DNA of 25,376 nucleotides from a virus. The notes below the pieces were generated by a model. The model had not been told where the DNA came from and did not search any database. It saw only the letters and a program-made list of their open reading frames with translations. A program made the position numbers and the translations under genes. This document shows, in pieces, positions 5,685 through 24,033 of the stretch. The stretch's first letter is position 1; every line of letters starts with the position of its first letter. The stretch is taken from IMG/VR virus record IMGVR_UViG_3300025030_000390, positions 1 to 25,376 of that record; one strand, given 5' to 3'.

Positions 5685-8321
5685 TCACCCACACTTTGAA
5701 AAACCACAATCTGGATTAGAGCACACAGAACATCCTTCTGCTAATTGCATTGGACTATGACATTCAGGACAGTCATTCTCATTAGAAATATCTTCAATTA
5801 TACTAATGATTTCTGATGTAATTTTCGTTTTATTTTTATATTCTTCTTCTAATGCTTTAGCAATAATGTCAGGACAAGATAAACCATTAATTTTCTTCTC
5901 ACCTTTAGTTTTTACTCTTGTGCAAGCAGAACAAGTAATTCCTTTCAGTTGATCTACTATTTCATCTACTTTTGTGCCTGATCTTAATGCTAATGAAATA
6001 AGTCTATTTAAGCCATCAATATTAGATTTACATGTTCCATTTTTACTTGTATTTACAAATGATTCAACTATGTTTCCTTCTTTGTCACGATTAATTGTTA
6101 GATAAAATGAACCGCAAGCTGTGGTATATTTGTCGGTAACTCCATATGTTTTACCAATAGATGAACGACTTAATGGTTGAATTGAATCAAGATTAATACC
6201 GTGACCTACTTCATTGTTTCCAATTTGCATTGTCTGATTTTTACGTGAATTATTGCGATAATATGTTACACCTTTAATTCCTAGTTTCCATGCAGTAATC
6301 AATAATTCAAACAATTCATCTTTTGTTGCATTTTCAGGGGCATTAACAGTTTTACTTATTGCATTGTCGTAATATTTTTGGAATTGTGCTTGTGTCTTAA
6401 TATGCCATTCAGGTGAAATATCATTAGCGCATCTAAATAAGTCTCTTAATTTTTTTGGTACAGAACTAATTTGTGCTGTTCCTTTTTCATAACACTCTTT
6501 TATTATTTCAAGTTCTTTTTTTGTATCTTTTATAATGCTATGTAACATAGTTGCAAATAGTTCACTAGCTTCATATATTTCACCAGTAATAATTCTTCTA
6601 AGTATAGCAACCCCAAATAATGGTTCCACACCGTATGCAGTAGTATTTAAAATACCAGCAATTGATCCAGTGGGAGCTTGTGTACTAATAGTTGCACATC
6701 TTGCAGGAGTATTGGTTAAAGCAAAAATACTTTCATTCCAACTAGGGAAATTACCTTTTTCTAATGCAAGTTCCGTATTGTATAATTTCTCAATCTTTTG
6801 TTTAAATCCAAATACTTTGTCAATGAATTTAAGACATTCTTCACTATCATACCTAATACCCATTTTAATTAATAAATTAGCCCATCCTGCCACACCTACC
6901 CCAATTTTTCTATTTGCTAAAACTTTTTCTTTGAATTCAGGAAGAACATATTCATTAACATCAATAACATCATCTAGAAATCTTATTGCATTTTTGATTA
7001 CATATTCAAACATAACCAAATCTACATCTTTTGTTTTTTTATCATATAGATTTTCTAAGTTAATACTCCCTAAATTGCAAAATTCATATCCTTCAAGGGG
7101 TTGCTCTCCACAATTATGGACTATTACATTTTCTACTACTCCCCAATGTGCTAATGGTTCCATAAAATCATAAACTTTTTGCTTTCCAATATTTTGAATA
7201 GATATTACTGTTGGACATTGATCTTTGAACGCTAATAACTTTTTATTTAAAGAATTTTGTGCTTCACATTCATATCCATCGTTTAACATAAATACATGGT
7301 TTGGAGTACATTTAATTGATTTATTATTACTTAATTTTAATTCTACAACTTCTTTTTCTCCATTACACCAAACTTTTTTACTGAATACATTGCCATTTGA
7401 ATCAATAATGTTAATTTCTTTACCATCTAACTCTTCAAATGTTTGATATCCATCAGATGTCAATAAATTCATATCACCTGTAAAGCAAGGATTGGTCGTA
7501 CTCATATAATGCTCATTACTACTATTAAATTTACCATCTTGAAGATTGAAAGGATTGTCACGGTTGATAGAATCAGTCCATAACGCCCCAGGTTCTCCGT
7601 TTTCCCATAATCCATCAATAATATCGTTAAATAATTCTTTTGCTTTCACAGTTTTATATGTTTTGCCATCCCAAACTAAATCAATATCTTCATCATTAAT
7701 AATTTTACGCATTTCTTCATCTGTAATCGTAACAGATATATTCATTGCATTAAGACTACCATCATCTTTTTTACTATGTATAAAATCATTAAAGTCCGGA
7801 TGCGAAAATCTTAAACTTGCCATATTAGCTGCTCTTCTAGCTTTATCTCCTTGAATAGTTGTATTCGCTACAGTATTAATTAAATGCATCCAATTAACTA
7901 CTCCTGCCGAAGTTCCACCAGATGATTTAATGATTTCTCCTTTTGGCCTAATATCAGATAAATCTTGACCAACACCACAACCATATTTTGTAAGTTTTGC
8001 ATTATGCCACATATGTTTATAGATACCTTCTAAATTATCTGGTATTCTAGGTAACACTGAGCAAGCACTAAGACATTTATTATAACCAGACCCAATAAGA
8101 GTAGGTGTATTTGGCATGAATAATTGTCGATCCATTAGGTCATAGAATATTTTTTCATATTCTTCTTGTAATTCTGGAGTTTTTTCTGCTTTTGATATTG
8201 TTTTTGCAACGCGCATGAACATTTCTTCTGCTGTTTTTTCAATAACCTCGCCTGTATTTGTATCTTTAAAGAAATACCTATCTTCTAGTAGTCTTTGTGT
8301 ATTCTCATTAATTACTGCCAA
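5685..8321 (-). CDS. nrdJ: Class II (adenosylcobalamin-dependent) ribonucleotide reductase with mini-intein
   Basis: Reduces ribonucleotides to deoxyribonucleotides using vitamin B12, without oxygen. The 878-aa precursor would be 753 aa after splicing, normal for NrdJ. Hallmarks: MPNTPTL (69-75), LSACSVLP with C87, RPKGEIIKSSGGTSAG (125-140), NPC-GE with the thiyl-radical cysteine C404 directly after the intein, C415 in FCNLGSIN (the redox partner of C87, spaced 11 from C404 as in the Lactobacillus enzyme), and a C-terminal cysteine-rich tail (851-878, CPEC ... GCSVC ... CGFSKC). I place the start at a TTG (8321) with GGAGG eight bases upstream. The open frame extends to 8459, but those residues do not look like NrdJ and overlap the upstream small gene. 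It heads the dNTP block with the MazG-like and dCMP deaminase genes. Confidence 0.93.
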   Translation of the reverse strand: MAVINENTQRLLEDRYFFKDTNTGEVIEKTAEEMFMRVAKTISKAEKTPELQEEYEKIFYDLMDRQLFMPNTPTLIGSGYNKCLSACSVLPRIPDNLEGIYKHMWHNAKLTKYGCGVGQDLSDIRPKGEIIKSSGGTSAGVVNWMHLINTVANTTIQGDKARRAANMASLRFSHPDFNDFIHSKKDDGSLNAMNISVTITDEEMRKIINDEDIDLVWDGKTYKTVKAKELFNDIIDGLWENGEPGALWTDSINRDNPFNLQDGKFNSSNEHYMSTTNPCFTGDMNLLTSDGYQTFEELDGKEINIIDSNGNVFSKKVWCNGEKEVVELKLSNNKSIKCTPNHVFMLNDGYECEAQNSLNKKLLAFKDQCPTVISIQNIGKQKVYDFMEPLAHWGVVENVIVHNCGEQPLEGYEFCNLGSINLENLYDKKTKDVDLVMFEYVIKNAIRFLDDVIDVNEYVLPEFKEKVLANRKIGVGVAGWANLLIKMGIRYDSEECLKFIDKVFGFKQKIEKLYNTELALEKGNFPSWNESIFALTNTPARCATISTQAPTGSIAGILNTTAYGVEPLFGVAILRRIITGEIYEASELFATMLHSIIKDTKKELEIIKECYEKGTAQISSVPKKLRDLFRCANDISPEWHIKTQAQFQKYYDNAISKTVNAPENATKDELFELLITAWKLGIKGVTYYRNNSRKNQTMQIGNNEVGHGINLDSIQPLSRSSIGKTYGVTDKYTTACGSFYLTINRDKEGNIVESFVNTSKNGTCKSNIDGLNRLISLALRSGTKVDEIVDQLKGITCSACTRVKTKGEKKINGLSCPDIIAKALEEEYKNKTKITSEIISIIEDISNENDCPECHSPMQLAEGCSVCSNPDCGFSKCG
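7113..7487 (-). other. Mini-intein within ribonucleotide reductase, 125 codons
   Basis: In-frame protein-splicing element replacing nothing in the host protein: TTNP is followed by intein residue C1 (CFTGDMNLL, block A), a block B TPNH (residues 61-64, with the conserved Thr and His), a block F VYDF ... H, and ends VIVHN followed by the host Cys (C+1). Removing it restores the NPCGEQPL motif of NrdJ. There is no endonuclease domain between blocks B and F, so it is a minimal intein, among the shorter ones (the classic small one, from the Methanothermobacter ribonucleotide reductase, is 134 aa). All nucleophiles for splicing are present, so it is expected to splice. Confidence 0.92.
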
Positions 8322-8439
8322 TTGTGTATCCTCCAATAATTTTATTTTAATATTTATCCCAAGCAAAAATCTTATTTTATTGCCTTTGAATACGTTCATA
8401 TTCTTTTTCATATTTCTCCATAATTTTAGTATCATACTG

Positions 8440-8589
8440 TCAACCTGAAATCTCTGCACTTAAATTATTAGAAAGTATCCTCACTTCTTCCATTTCTACT
8501 TTATTTAATTCAGAAAATTTATGTAATAGTCTTTTCAATTCTCTAACAATATCTAAGATATCCATATTTCCATAATCCATTGTCATCAT
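8440..8589 (-). CDS. Small hypothetical protein, 49 aa
   Basis: Short gene with a strong GGGAGGTG site before two consecutive ATGs, and a TGA stop. The peptide MMTMDYGNMDILDIVREL continues as an amphipathic helix (RLLHKFSELNKVEMEEV). It lies about 120 bases before the TTG start of the ribonucleotide reductase, and its stop overlaps the over-long open frame of that gene. Function unknown; it could be a leader or a small regulatory protein. Confidence 0.6.
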   Translation of the reverse strand: MMTMDYGNMDILDIVRELKRLLHKFSELNKVEMEEVRILSNNLSAEISG

Positions 8590-8609: not shown

Positions 8610-8873
8610 CTACATATCCCAGTGCCTATTCTTCTTCAAAATCTCAATAACCTCACCTGCATATGGTTCATCAATATTTATAACTAAATACTGATTGCTA
8701 GGTTTTTTATTAAATTTAACTCTGCTAACCCTAATATTTTTAATAATTCTTGCTAAATCAATACTATCTTGTTCTGATGCGTGTTTGTATAAATCATCCT
8801 GTTTTATGACTACATATTTGTGAAAATCAATACCATGTAAAGAAATATTATTTAAATTATTTATATAAATTAT
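8610..8873 (-). pseudogene. Open reading frame without a usual start codon
   Basis: An 87-codon open frame with protein-like composition (LHGIDFHKYVVIKQDD, then YLVINIDEPYAGEVIEILKK, ending RHWDM) and a normal TAG stop next to the ribosome binding site of the 49-aa gene. No ATG, GTG or TTG occurs in frame before the conserved-looking part, and no ribosome binding site is placed for one. A 13-base tandem repeat (8854-8890) lies exactly where the start should be and may have destroyed it. Either a recent pseudogene or a gene using ATT/ATA. Confidence 0.4.
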
Positions 8874-9074: not shown

Positions 9075-9269
9075 TTAATCTTCCATCCTTTCATTTTTAA
9101 TTTCTGATTCTCTATCTAACACTTCAATTGTTACCTTTTTATAATAATGTCCTTTGTTAGTGTCTTGATCGACAATAAATGCATAATTAACTTTATCCGT
9201 ATAATTTTTCTCATACTCTTCAAAACTACACTGAATCCAATCGCCATCTCGACCATGTAAAATTTTAAT
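9075..9269 (-). CDS. Small protein with probable AUU start, 64 aa; paralogue of the next upstream gene
   Basis: The frame has no ATG, GTG or TTG near its beginning. An ATT at 9269 lies seven bases after a perfect AGAGGTG ribosome binding site, and the peptide from there (KILHGRDGDWIQCSFEEY ... HYYKKVTIEV) aligns with the 48-aa protein at 9398-9544 (KILNRIDGQWTTC ... YYKKIG) from its third residue on. That homology supports the frame and the start region. No family name is known to me. The gene follows a large hairpin at 9290-9344, which could affect its expression. Confidence 0.6.
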   Translation of the reverse strand: MKILHGRDGDWIQCSFEEYEKNYTDKVNYAFIVDQDTNKGHYYKKVTIEVLDRESEIKNERMED

Positions 9270-9289
9270 ATGTATTCACCTCTTTTGAT

Positions 9290-9344
9290 TTAGCAAGAAT
9301 TTGATTAGTATCGTAATTAATCTGTGTTATCAAATTCTTGCTAA
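9290..9344. repeat. Large inverted repeat, 16-bp perfect stem, 23-base loop
   Basis: TAGCAAGAATTTGAT and its exact reverse complement at 9329-9343, plus one more outer pair. It lies between the two paralogous small genes and ends ten bases before the AGAGGTG of the second. No U-run follows on the minus strand, so it is not a standard terminator; it could block or expose the downstream ribosome binding site region, stabilise mRNA or be a protein-binding site. Confidence 0.85.
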
Positions 9345-9397: not shown

Positions 9398-9544
9398 TTA
9401 ACCAATCTTTTTATAATATGTAGTTGTATTGGTTAGATCACTTTTGCTAAACATGAAGTTTGCTTTGTCTTGGGAATTGTATTCTTGAGAAGTGCAGGTA
9501 GTCCATTGACCATCGATGCGATTTAGGATTTTTGTAGGATTCAT
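9398..9544 (-). CDS. Small hypothetical protein, 48 aa; first gene after a strong promoter
   Basis: ATG eight bases after a full AAAGGAGGTG site, directly downstream of a perfect sigma-A promoter, so it should be highly expressed. The peptide MNPTKILNRIDGQWTTC ... TTTYYKKIG shares the KIL...DG.W..C and T..YYKK pattern with the next gene, suggesting an old duplication. No membrane segment. Function unknown. Confidence 0.75.
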   Translation of the reverse strand: MNPTKILNRIDGQWTTCTSQEYNSQDKANFMFSKSDLTNTTTYYKKIG

Positions 9545-17371: not shown

Positions 17372-18886
17372 TTAAAAATCTACTGGAACAACTGTATATC
17401 CAATTTCTTTATAAACGTTGCGCGAAAGGTCGTGTTCTACAATAATTTGATAATCATTAGTGCTACCTTCACGATTTTTAACAATGAATATTATTTGATA
17501 ATTCTTACCTTTTTTTAGTTTTACAGGAATTTGAGATTCAATATTACCTTGTCTTTTTTCTTTTCTATAAACATTTAATTCGCGTTTTCCACCTTCTATT
17601 TCATCATCAAGAACTTTTCTAACCATTAAACAAGTTGACGCGACATCTACAATATTTTTTGCCATACCAATATTATCTTGATCATAATATCTTTGTTTTG
17701 AACTACCTTTACTTAATTGGAATGTAATCCAAATATGTACATTTTTTGATTCTGGTTTAATAACATCATTAATTTCAACCATGTTCTGTTGCATACTAAA
17801 CCAAAAAGCTTCACTGCTTGATGCTTTTGAATCTGCTTTGTATGTATCAAGCATGAAATATTTTACACCCATACTAGAGTATTTTTTTATTGTTTTGATT
17901 GCTTTAGCTGTAGTATATTGTGTAAATGGTTTTAGTATTATTGTATTTTTATATTGCTTAACCCATTCTGAACACTTTTTTAGTAATTCTTTTACCTCTG
18001 GTTTATATTTACCATCACGTACAATATATTTTTGTAAATCTTCCTTAAAAACATTATTAGCCACCCAAACAAGAAATTCACGTTGCCATTTCTTCTTCCC
18101 TTCTTCGTTTATCATTATGACTATTTTCTCTTTATGTTCCAAAATTCCTGGAAGAATTAAAATTCTACTTAACGCTGTCTTTCCCACACCACTCAGACCA
18201 CCAACCAAAGTAATATTACCTTCAAGATTACCTCCGACTTCCTTGTTTAACATAGGTGAATTGTATAATGGTAAACCTACTGCTGCGCCTTGATCTAATT
18301 CTTCAATCAATTCATCTAGCCCATCAGAAATATCATGAGTAATATCTTCTCCTTCAACATTAATAAAAATATGATTCAATATTGCCTCTTCTTCGTCATA
18401 TATTTGTTCAGATGTCATATCTACAAAATCTTTAATTCTTTCTGATATTGGTTTCTTTTTCAATAAACCTAATACAGCATTCCATTTGTAAAGTTCATTA
18501 ATATATCCACTAAGATTATCAATTTTTACATATGTTTTTGCGTTTTCAATTGTTTCATAACCTTTATATTTTTCATATTGCTCCTTTAGTTTTAAATGTT
18601 TTTCAAGATATAATCCTACGGTAATATCGTCAAGGACTAATTTTTTCTCTTTTATAACTATATCATAACCTATCTGCCAATAGACCTTCCAACAGTTTTC
18701 TGTAAAATTAGATAATTTTAGTTTATCATATGTATAATATAAATCAGGTTGTTTCCACAATATTGAGACGATATTTGCCTCGCAAGCCTTTTTATATTCT
18801 CTAATCTTTTTACCTGTTGCCAACATTTCTTCTTCGAATGGAGTTAATTTATTTGTTGCACTTTTACTTTTAACGGCTTGTGTAAT
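17372..18886 (-). CDS. DnaB-type replicative helicase, probable AUU start
   Basis: Hexameric 5'-3' replicative helicase. An N-terminal helical domain (about 20-160) precedes the RecA-like motor with Walker A GGLSGVGKTA (about 229-238), NEEGKKKWQREF after strand 2, LDTYK (Walker B region) and the arginine-finger segment VYRKEKRQG. A GTG at 18895 would give 507 aa, but that GTG is part of the GAGGTG ribosome binding site itself. The ATT at 18886 is six bases beyond that site and is the best-spaced codon, giving 504 aa. The next ATG (about 24 codons on) would cut the N-terminus and has no binding site. The next gene downstream is the primase. Confidence 0.88.
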   Translation of the reverse strand: MTQAVKSKSATNKLTPFEEEMLATGKKIREYKKACEANIVSILWKQPDLYYTYDKLKLSNFTENCWKVYWQIGYDIVIKEKKLVLDDITVGLYLEKHLKLKEQYEKYKGYETIENAKTYVKIDNLSGYINELYKWNAVLGLLKKKPISERIKDFVDMTSEQIYDEEEAILNHIFINVEGEDITHDISDGLDELIEELDQGAAVGLPLYNSPMLNKEVGGNLEGNITLVGGLSGVGKTALSRILILPGILEHKEKIVIMINEEGKKKWQREFLVWVANNVFKEDLQKYIVRDGKYKPEVKELLKKCSEWVKQYKNTIILKPFTQYTTAKAIKTIKKYSSMGVKYFMLDTYKADSKASSSEAFWFSMQQNMVEINDVIKPESKNVHIWITFQLSKGSSKQRYYDQDNIGMAKNIVDVASTCLMVRKVLDDEIEGGKRELNVYRKEKRQGNIESQIPVKLKKGKNYQIIFIVKNREGSTNDYQIIVEHDLSRNVYKEIGYTVVPVDF

Positions 18887-18899
18887 AGATATCACCTCT

Positions 18900-22818: not shown

Positions 22819-23985
22819 TCATGCAGTTTTCACTACATTTATAATCACAGGGGTTAGGCACCCCTTTATTCCATCAGCAAAAGCGTTTGGAAATACCTTC
22901 TTCATAATTTGAAATGATCCATTTACATCACTGTTAATTAACTGACCATTATTAGATTTAAATAAACCTCTATATACTCTTCTAGATTTATCATAGTTTT
23001 GTTTTTCTGGGGTTTCACTATCTAAAAATGATGTGCCACTTGTATAACTCTCTTCATTCATTATCAACCTAATTCCATTATCTTGGCATTTATACGTCAA
23101 TTGTTTAATCAACATATTATAAGGAATGGAAACGAAATTTTGTGTGGTTGATCCATTTAATTTGCAATTTTGTTTCCATGTTTTATTTAACCCAATAACC
23201 AATGTATTAATATTATTTTTGTTACAGTATTTAATTATGTAATGACTTGTATGGTGAATAATATTTTTAATCTTATTTCCTCTTTTGAGTGTAATGGCAT
23301 TTAATTTATTACTCCAATGTTGATTGTGTCGTATTTCTAGTTCGGATTGCAATTTTGCTCTTTGTTTATTATAGTGTTGATTAATAGATTTTAACCCTTT
23401 GCCATTAATAATAATTGGTTGTAACCCAATATTATTTACCATAGTTACAAAGTTATTAACTCCTAAATCAATACTACAAATATTTTTAATTTCAGGGATA
23501 TTTTCAGAAACTTCCACCTCATAAACAATTTCTAAAACATAAACACTTCCCCTTGGTACAAATCTGACTGAAATTAATCTGCCTCTAACATTGGTTTTAA
23601 ATTTATAACCATTAAATACTTTCAACCTAAAACAAAGATACTCATCTTTAATATAAGTTTGATTATTTTTCAGAAACCATGCAAATACACCTCCTTTCTT
23701 TTTATATTTTGGTATTTTAGGTTTCCCTAAATATTTTTCTGGATGTTGAGTCCAATCTTTAATAGATGCGAAAAATGATTTCCAACTCCTATCTAACACT
23801 TGTAATAGACATTGAGATGATTGAGACATTAATGCCTTATATTCTTTTGTTTGCTGTAGTATTTTATCCATTTCTCTATACTTAATATAGTTATGGTTAT
23901 TGATAAACTCTTGACGGATAATATAATTCGCAACATTGTAAAGATTTTTTGATCGAAAGCAAAATTCGTCAACCAATTTAAACAT
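22819..23985 (-). CDS. tnpB: TnpB variant lacking zinc-ribbon cysteines
   Basis: TnpB-family protein, 388 aa from the first ATG. RuvC motif I is intact (D173 in SIDLGVNNF) and the third aspartate is in NSDVNGSF (D353). At the usual RuvC-II site there is VIGLNKTWKQ with no glutamate; glutamates occur instead at EESYTSGTSFLD (311-312), the position used by the rearranged-site TnpB subgroup. The CxxC pairs of the zinc ribbon are absent. The frame remains open upstream of the ATG (NRTEQHQINKNHP) and that part looks like the true family N-terminus, yet has no ATG/GTG/TTG and the ATG at 23985 has no binding site. So it is either N-terminally decayed or starts at a non-standard codon. Confidence 0.8.
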   Translation of the reverse strand: MFKLVDEFCFRSKNLYNVANYIIRQEFINNHNYIKYREMDKILQQTKEYKALMSQSSQCLLQVLDRSWKSFFASIKDWTQHPEKYLGKPKIPKYKKKGGVFAWFLKNNQTYIKDEYLCFRLKVFNGYKFKTNVRGRLISVRFVPRGSVYVLEIVYEVEVSENIPEIKNICSIDLGVNNFVTMVNNIGLQPIIINGKGLKSINQHYNKQRAKLQSELEIRHNQHWSNKLNAITLKRGNKIKNIIHHTSHYIIKYCNKNNINTLVIGLNKTWKQNCKLNGSTTQNFVSIPYNMLIKQLTYKCQDNGIRLIMNEESYTSGTSFLDSETPEKQNYDKSRRVYRGLFKSNNGQLINSDVNGSFQIMKKVFPNAFADGIKGCLTPVIINVVKTA

Positions 23986-24033
23986 GGGATGATTTTTATT
24001 AATTTGATGTTGTTCGGTTCTATTAACTAATAT

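Follow-up and report, generated by a model that had tools for sequence, protein, structure and literature searches.

The window, as we call the whole stretch of DNA analysed here (an IMG/VR virus record of 25,376 bases), encodes on its minus strand a 64-aa protein that very probably starts at an AUU codon (ATT, positions 9269-9267), and AUH codons (AUU, AUA or AUC) behind strong Shine-Dalgarno sites recur in conserved open frames of related phages. The gene (9075-9269 including the stop codon) comprises 64 codons from 9269 to 9078, followed by TAA at 9077-9075. A preliminary description of this DNA had pointed to the motif AGAGGTG followed after seven bases by ATT, and exactly this arrangement is found on the minus strand at 9283-9267; the coordinates given there were three bases short, as the Shine-Dalgarno site (9277-9283) extends to 9283. 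It scores -14.4 kcal/mol (simple stacking score, own script), allows extended pairing as GAGGTGA and has an aligned spacing of 9 nt to the ATT, the seven-base spacer being AATACAT (9276-9270). In frame above the ATT are CAT, ATA and then a TGA (9278-9276), which closes the frame three codons upstream; the ATA (9275-9273) is just 3 nt from the GAGG core. The earliest in-frame alternative is GTG at codon 50 and the next ATG is codon 62, in agreement with the earlier remark that no ATG, GTG or TTG is available nearby. The gene thus shares two features with infC-type genes, namely an AUU/AUA/AUC start without a usable ATG, GTG or TTG, and an extended Shine-Dalgarno at good spacing. The residues behind the ATT align, as had also been noticed, with an upstream 48-aa paralogue (9398-9544, minus strand; frame 9544-9401) that starts conventionally, with ATG behind AAAGGAGGTGA; in a search restricted to the fetched loci, the identity was 44% across 45 residues and the E-value 3e-7.

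Relatives were collected from IMG/VR with the 64-aa protein (19 loci) and the neighbouring helicase (20 loci) as queries, and starts were taken from 24 copies including the window; exact duplicates, among them L006, L009 and L019 (identical to L005), were omitted, and L012/L013 and L020/L021 are near-duplicates. The start is ATT in 15 copies (window, L003, L004, L005, L007, L010, L011, L012, L013, L016, L017, L020, L021, L033 and L038), ATA in three (L008, L018 and L026) and ATG in four, and two distant copies have ATG (L039) and GTG (L031). The 22 near copies therefore always have ATT, ATA or ATG at or beside the codon used in the window, which lends strong support to the earlier proposal of AUU as the start; this conservation of a non-canonical start (AUH in 18/24 copies) is a further feature of the infC type. 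An ATG elsewhere in frame in related phages had been regarded as evidence against the AUU start. ATG relatives do exist, but their ATG lies at the same codon (L032, L034 and L014, the last with two extra bases five codons on, after which the remainder is in another frame) or, where the N-terminus is longer, a little upstream (L015), and at no alternative place shared by the window. The spacer between Shine-Dalgarno and start is 6 or 7 nt among the copies, in all 18 AUH copies the frame stays alignable over 22 or more codons past the start, and changes within codons 1-14 (13 loci) are mostly third-position. A dN/dS of 0.096 (53/55 pairs of 11 intact sequences) points to purifying selection. Frameshifts occur late in L017, L020 and L021 and early in the ATG copy L014, so retention of the gene is not universal, unless these assemblies contain errors. 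Taken together, the restriction to ATT, ATA and ATG in the 22 copies, the dN/dS ratio and the group-wide excess of AUH over controls (see below) argue for an AUH start beyond chance.

The GTG inside AGAGGTG could be imagined as the start in the relatives, the window copy being a frame-broken remnant, and nine of the 18 AUH copies do have it in the reading frame of the gene. In the other nine, however, it belongs to another frame and is directly followed by a TGA, and since its frame varies in this way while the frame past the AUH codon holds in all 18, this GTG cannot be the common start. It also overlaps the Shine-Dalgarno itself, which leaves zero spacing, and the window copy is one of nine of its type with an intact frame; together with the low dN/dS this makes a GTG start very unlikely. 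That an ordinary ATG was misread in sequencing or assembly is less probable still: although the window is a single contig of a metagenome assembly and three relatives have ATG at the same codon, 15 ATT and three ATA among the 24 copies come from separate contigs with differing sequences, and many other genes behave alike.

The 64-aa protein has no named relative among 50,697 phage records and matches no Pfam or PHROGs family at E-value 0.1. Its AlphaFold model is modest (mean pLDDT 69.9, pTM 0.47), with strands at residues 3-6, 9-14, 29-34 and 39-46, and a Foldseek search of the PDB with this model gave a best E-value of 1.3 and nothing at 0.001. A hairpin lies before the Shine-Dalgarno (9290-9344, minus strand; arms 9344-9329 and 9305-9290) and ends 6 nt short of it. 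Its 14 consensus pairs are unbroken in 19 sequences; two pairs show one double change each, the remaining changes yield G-U pairs on the gene's own strand, and in the window this stretch folds better than its shuffles (z -2.5). The more distant copy L026 seems, by eye, to have a different, unrelated hairpin at the same place. We rejected the idea of a dispersed repeat, as the paired arms were found at the 64-aa locus only. The 5' mRNA stabilisers of Bacilli offer a parallel for a stem just before a strong Shine-Dalgarno.

Three neighbouring frames on the same strand deserve mention in their own right. The 49-aa frame at 8440-8589 ends at an in-frame TGA where the L004, L005 and L012 types have a tryptophan codon, and its relatives continue for about 20 residues further, so the window copy looks truncated. 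The conserved gene at 8610-8846 (PHROG 5992) likewise has no ATG, GTG or TTG; its relatives have ATT or ATC behind AAGGTGAT, or TTG in another subtype, and in the window AT-rich repeats displace the frame relative to its Shine-Dalgarno, a sign that this copy may be disrupted. The frame at 5685-8459 is ribonucleotide reductase-like and, judged by eye, contains an apparent intein (CFTGDMNLL...VIVHNC).

To find out which codon stands behind strong Shine-Dalgarno sites in conserved open frames, we analysed a target group of eight related phage records in full, parts of five others and eleven sequences (the window and ten loci). The anchored test was confined to columns where ATG stands in a relative behind a site scoring at least as well as -8 kcal/mol, the gene's own site reaching this level too; 200 target genes with a site weaker than -8 were set aside, as were 69 with another ATG, GTG or TTG plus site within four codons. 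The remaining columns hold ATG in 443 cases, TTG in 40, AUH in 24 (15 ATA and 9 ATT, from 13 families), GTG in 13 and another codon in 8 (6 families). AUH thus makes up about 24/520 of the ATG/TTG/GTG/AUH columns, and the earlier statement that AUU starts are rare stands for bacteria in general, but not for this phage group. Many of the AUH counts are repeated members of few families, and one of the 24 (L022, codon 37) proved to be a misalignment, which was dropped before the comparison of Shine-Dalgarno sites; some of the 8 others are suspect in the same way. Clear ATG/AUH pairs are MAKGK/IAKGK, MDILLYN/IDILLYN, MQKVKFLKDF/IRKVRFLKDF, MKTLNPQKSEEL/IKTLNPQKSEEL and MLINQIKSDALIARK/ILINKIKSDALIARK, as well as MKKISFLIGTLILSVALTGCG/IKKISLIIMTVILSVTLTGCG with a lipoprotein-like signal. 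Our first start-codon counts were discarded as too loose, because they took the GTG inside GGAGGTG as a start or accepted misaligned columns; such a count had given 25 genes without ATG, GTG or TTG near the aligned column (8 ATA, 5 ATT, 12 other).

Two tests that do not use the anchor gave a similar picture. Sites of -14 or better in the target group lead to ATG in 195 cases, TTG in 49, GTG in 7, AUH in 27 and another codon in 5 (by families: 116, 32, 6, 18 and 5, respectively). In a homology-free scan, AUH was found at start distance in 36 of the 61 cases with a strong Shine-Dalgarno but without ATG, GTG or TTG (25 other), versus 46/183 in controls taken from stretches further down the same frames (P-value 2e-6). 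At a threshold of -10 the target group gave 57 AUH versus 37 other (in-frame controls 66/282).

Among other phages, sites of -14 or better led to ATG 62, TTG 19, GTG 2, AUH 10 and other 3 in three Clostridioides phages, to ATG 3, GTG 2, TTG 1 and AUH 1 in one Thomasclavelia phage, and to ATG 50, TTG 21, GTG 2, AUH 0 and other 1 in six Bacillales phages; the difference in AUH between target and Bacillales has a P-value of 0.002 by gene and 0.008 by family. The homology-free scan yielded 13 AUH versus 10 other (control 16/69) in the Clostridioides phages and 3 versus 16 (control 12/57) in the Bacillales phages. At -10 the Clostridioides phages had 14 AUH versus 12 other (controls 17/78) and the Bacillales phages 7 versus 26, with no excess over controls (15/99); looser thresholds blur the AUH contrast between the groups. 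The anchored test found 1 AUH among 4 non-canonical columns in the Clostridioides phages, so that their AUH signal rests on the unanchored and homology-free tests, and 1 among 3 in the Bacillales phages, a doubtful case at an internal codon. Thus, the Clostridioides phages have some AUH starts and the six Bacillales phages few or none, with the reservation that the latter are less AT-rich (31-42% GC versus 27-32% in the target group) and include two close relatives of each other, FADO and 2S-4. A sample of 400 kb from four Clostridia genomes, too small for such a comparison, contained 1 AUH and 19 other. The closest named phage, LIBA6276 (56.5% in DnaE), suggests a clostridial affinity of the phage group. 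The window's TnpB was tried as a guide to the host and rejected: the one locus that it matched in the genome_contigs collection, in a Lachnospiraceae metagenome genome, is 46% identical and too distant to name one.

The TnpB-like gene (22819-24033, minus strand; Pfam OrfB_IS605) is itself a second AUH candidate in the window, with an ATA (24033-24031) behind AAAGGA, 16 codons above the first ATG and aligned with the ATG of the 46% identical relative L102. A weaker candidate is the DnaB-like helicase (17372-18886, minus strand), with ATT at 18886-18884 behind GAGGTGAT; a GTG at 18895 falls within its Shine-Dalgarno, and with the start of the family poorly anchored an AUU start is not firmly supported here. 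Some observations were made outside the window. The primase of LIBA6276 (MF547662.1, 79599-80660; L103) is annotated from 80450, apparently about 70 codons too short, and its frame extends up to an ATA that follows AGGAGGTGATT and takes the place of the relatives' ATG in the alignment. In the anchored test of the Clostridioides phages, a DnaB-like reverse-strand frame of CP067347.1 (W09, 111634-113221) showed ACG behind GAAAGGAG, aligned with the ATG of a 90% identical relative, which makes it a possible ACG start. Finally, in one of the loci L220-L224, on a bacterial chromosome (G045), there is an AUA-start candidate behind GGAGGAGGTG, perhaps a host AUH gene beyond infC, whose N-terminus we take to resemble RNase Y.

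The Shine-Dalgarno sites of AUH genes are stronger than those of ATG genes in the anchored test (median -14.4 versus -11.8, P-value 8e-4 by gene and 0.014 by family), and a 3'-extended GGUG is present in 13/23 AUH sites versus 51/443 ATG sites, where members of a family are not independent. TTG starts, which are weak as well, likewise follow strong sites (median -13.9). Stronger and extended sites look like compensation for a poor codon, but they could equally permit drift of its third base. Hence we regard it as a serious possibility, if not quite a probable one, that the AUH starts are true but unregulated, a strong Shine-Dalgarno leaving the third base free to drift among ATG, ATT, ATA and ATC. 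ATG alternates with ATA within the MAKGK, MDILLYN and MQKVKFL families and with ATT or ATA in the 64-aa family, AT-rich genomes (such as those of the target group) push mutation away from G, and the Bacillales controls with few AUH are the less AT-rich ones; against such free drift, AUH is retained in 18 of the 22 near copies of the 64-aa gene. The abundance of AUH starts in this phage group could also be explained by a phage-borne means of reading them, e.g. an altered initiator tRNA or initiation factor. We consider it highly improbable: in the 24 target contigs, mostly fragments, we found no Met or Ile tRNA genes, the only tRNA genes being those of G004 (Thr) and G018 (Thr, Asn), and a search for the IF3 C-terminal domain in 25 phage records, again mostly fragments, gave none over the cut-off and two weak matches with internal stops. 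With neither found, AUH starts would have to be read by the host machinery.

The best-known gene of this design is infC, which codes for IF3 and is autoregulated. It was present in 59/59 genomes sampled from the class to which a Lachnospiraceae genome belongs (presumably Clostridia), and in all 30 loci read, of 60 places found, its best Shine-Dalgarno leads to AUH (ATT 17, ATC 7, ATA 6); in L199 and L207 there is, far upstream, an additional TTG whose site is weaker. The likeness to the window lies in an AUH codon behind a GGAGGTG-type Shine-Dalgarno, with ggaggtgaatccat-ATT (L188) close to the window's agaggtgaatacat-ATT, whereas the product of infC is IF3 itself and the phage protein is that of a predicted gene without assigned function or link to IF3. 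The pcnB gene of Escherichia coli also has an AUU start, which limits its expression, but it is a single chromosomal gene of a distant host. In Staphylococcus aureus, according to Kohl et al. (PMC13009471), AUU (cvfC1) and AUA (ccpN, infC) starts accompany extended Shine-Dalgarnos. With AUU or AUA and such sites, reporters for the three sites tested yielded roughly 10% of the expression seen with AUG in poor medium, and the one for ccpN up to 30% in rich medium. As described there (PMC13009471), cvfC1 (AUU, 61 aa), ccpN (AUA) and citZ (AUA) resemble the phage genes in their conserved non-canonical start and extended Shine-Dalgarno, and cvfC1 resembles the 64-aa gene also in being a small protein with an AUU start. 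In contrast, the S. aureus starts are proven by ribosome profiling and reporters, and four initiation sites are described for its genome (PMC13009471), compared with 13 families by the anchored test in the phages. An article of 2018 about a holin of C. difficile (PMC6200909) states that no ATT start was known from this species. We found no report of AUH starts in phages in the open-access literature, which by itself does not prove absence.

We consider quite probable the reading as a whole, i.e. a true AUU start that is inefficient, discriminated against by IF3 and rescued by the extended Shine-Dalgarno. The comparisons support the position and conservation of the start, purifying selection on the gene, the spread of AUH codons and their stronger Shine-Dalgarnos; from these and the known systems we infer translation from the AUU, a reduced level and a response to IF3. 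The ordinary initiator tRNA of the host would read the ATT with a third-base mismatch, which the strong, 3'-extended Shine-Dalgarno at good spacing would make possible, and IF3, which discriminates against AUU, AUA and AUC starts, would hold the product at a fraction of the AUG level. Such a reduced level is probable, and it is rather likely that expression of the gene responds to IF3, in which case it would probably depend, like that of infC, on how IF3 and ribosomes are balanced; some dozen other families of the phage group appear to share the design of AUH plus Shine-Dalgarno. By analogy with infC and the S. aureus reporters (PMC13009471), the IF3 sensitivity and deliberate low-expression device proposed in the preliminary description are plausible, though the exchange of AUH and ATG within families weakens the claim of a deliberate device, because plain tolerance behind a strong Shine-Dalgarno also fits. 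A bolder reading, which we think unlikely, is that the phage AUH genes and the host's infC belong to a single translational regulon, in which the output of the phage genes tracks the IF3/ribosome balance; if true, the phage would sense the state of translation in its clostridial host, or take its timing from it, without a dedicated regulator.

Devices of this kind are already known; the apparent novelty is that a single phage group has so many of these genes. Gene finders commonly accept only ATG, GTG and TTG, so that up to about 1 in 20 Shine-Dalgarno-led genes of these phages (24/520) may be missed or given a wrong start. A natural set of AUH genes in one genome would allow asking what the discrimination by IF3 serves.
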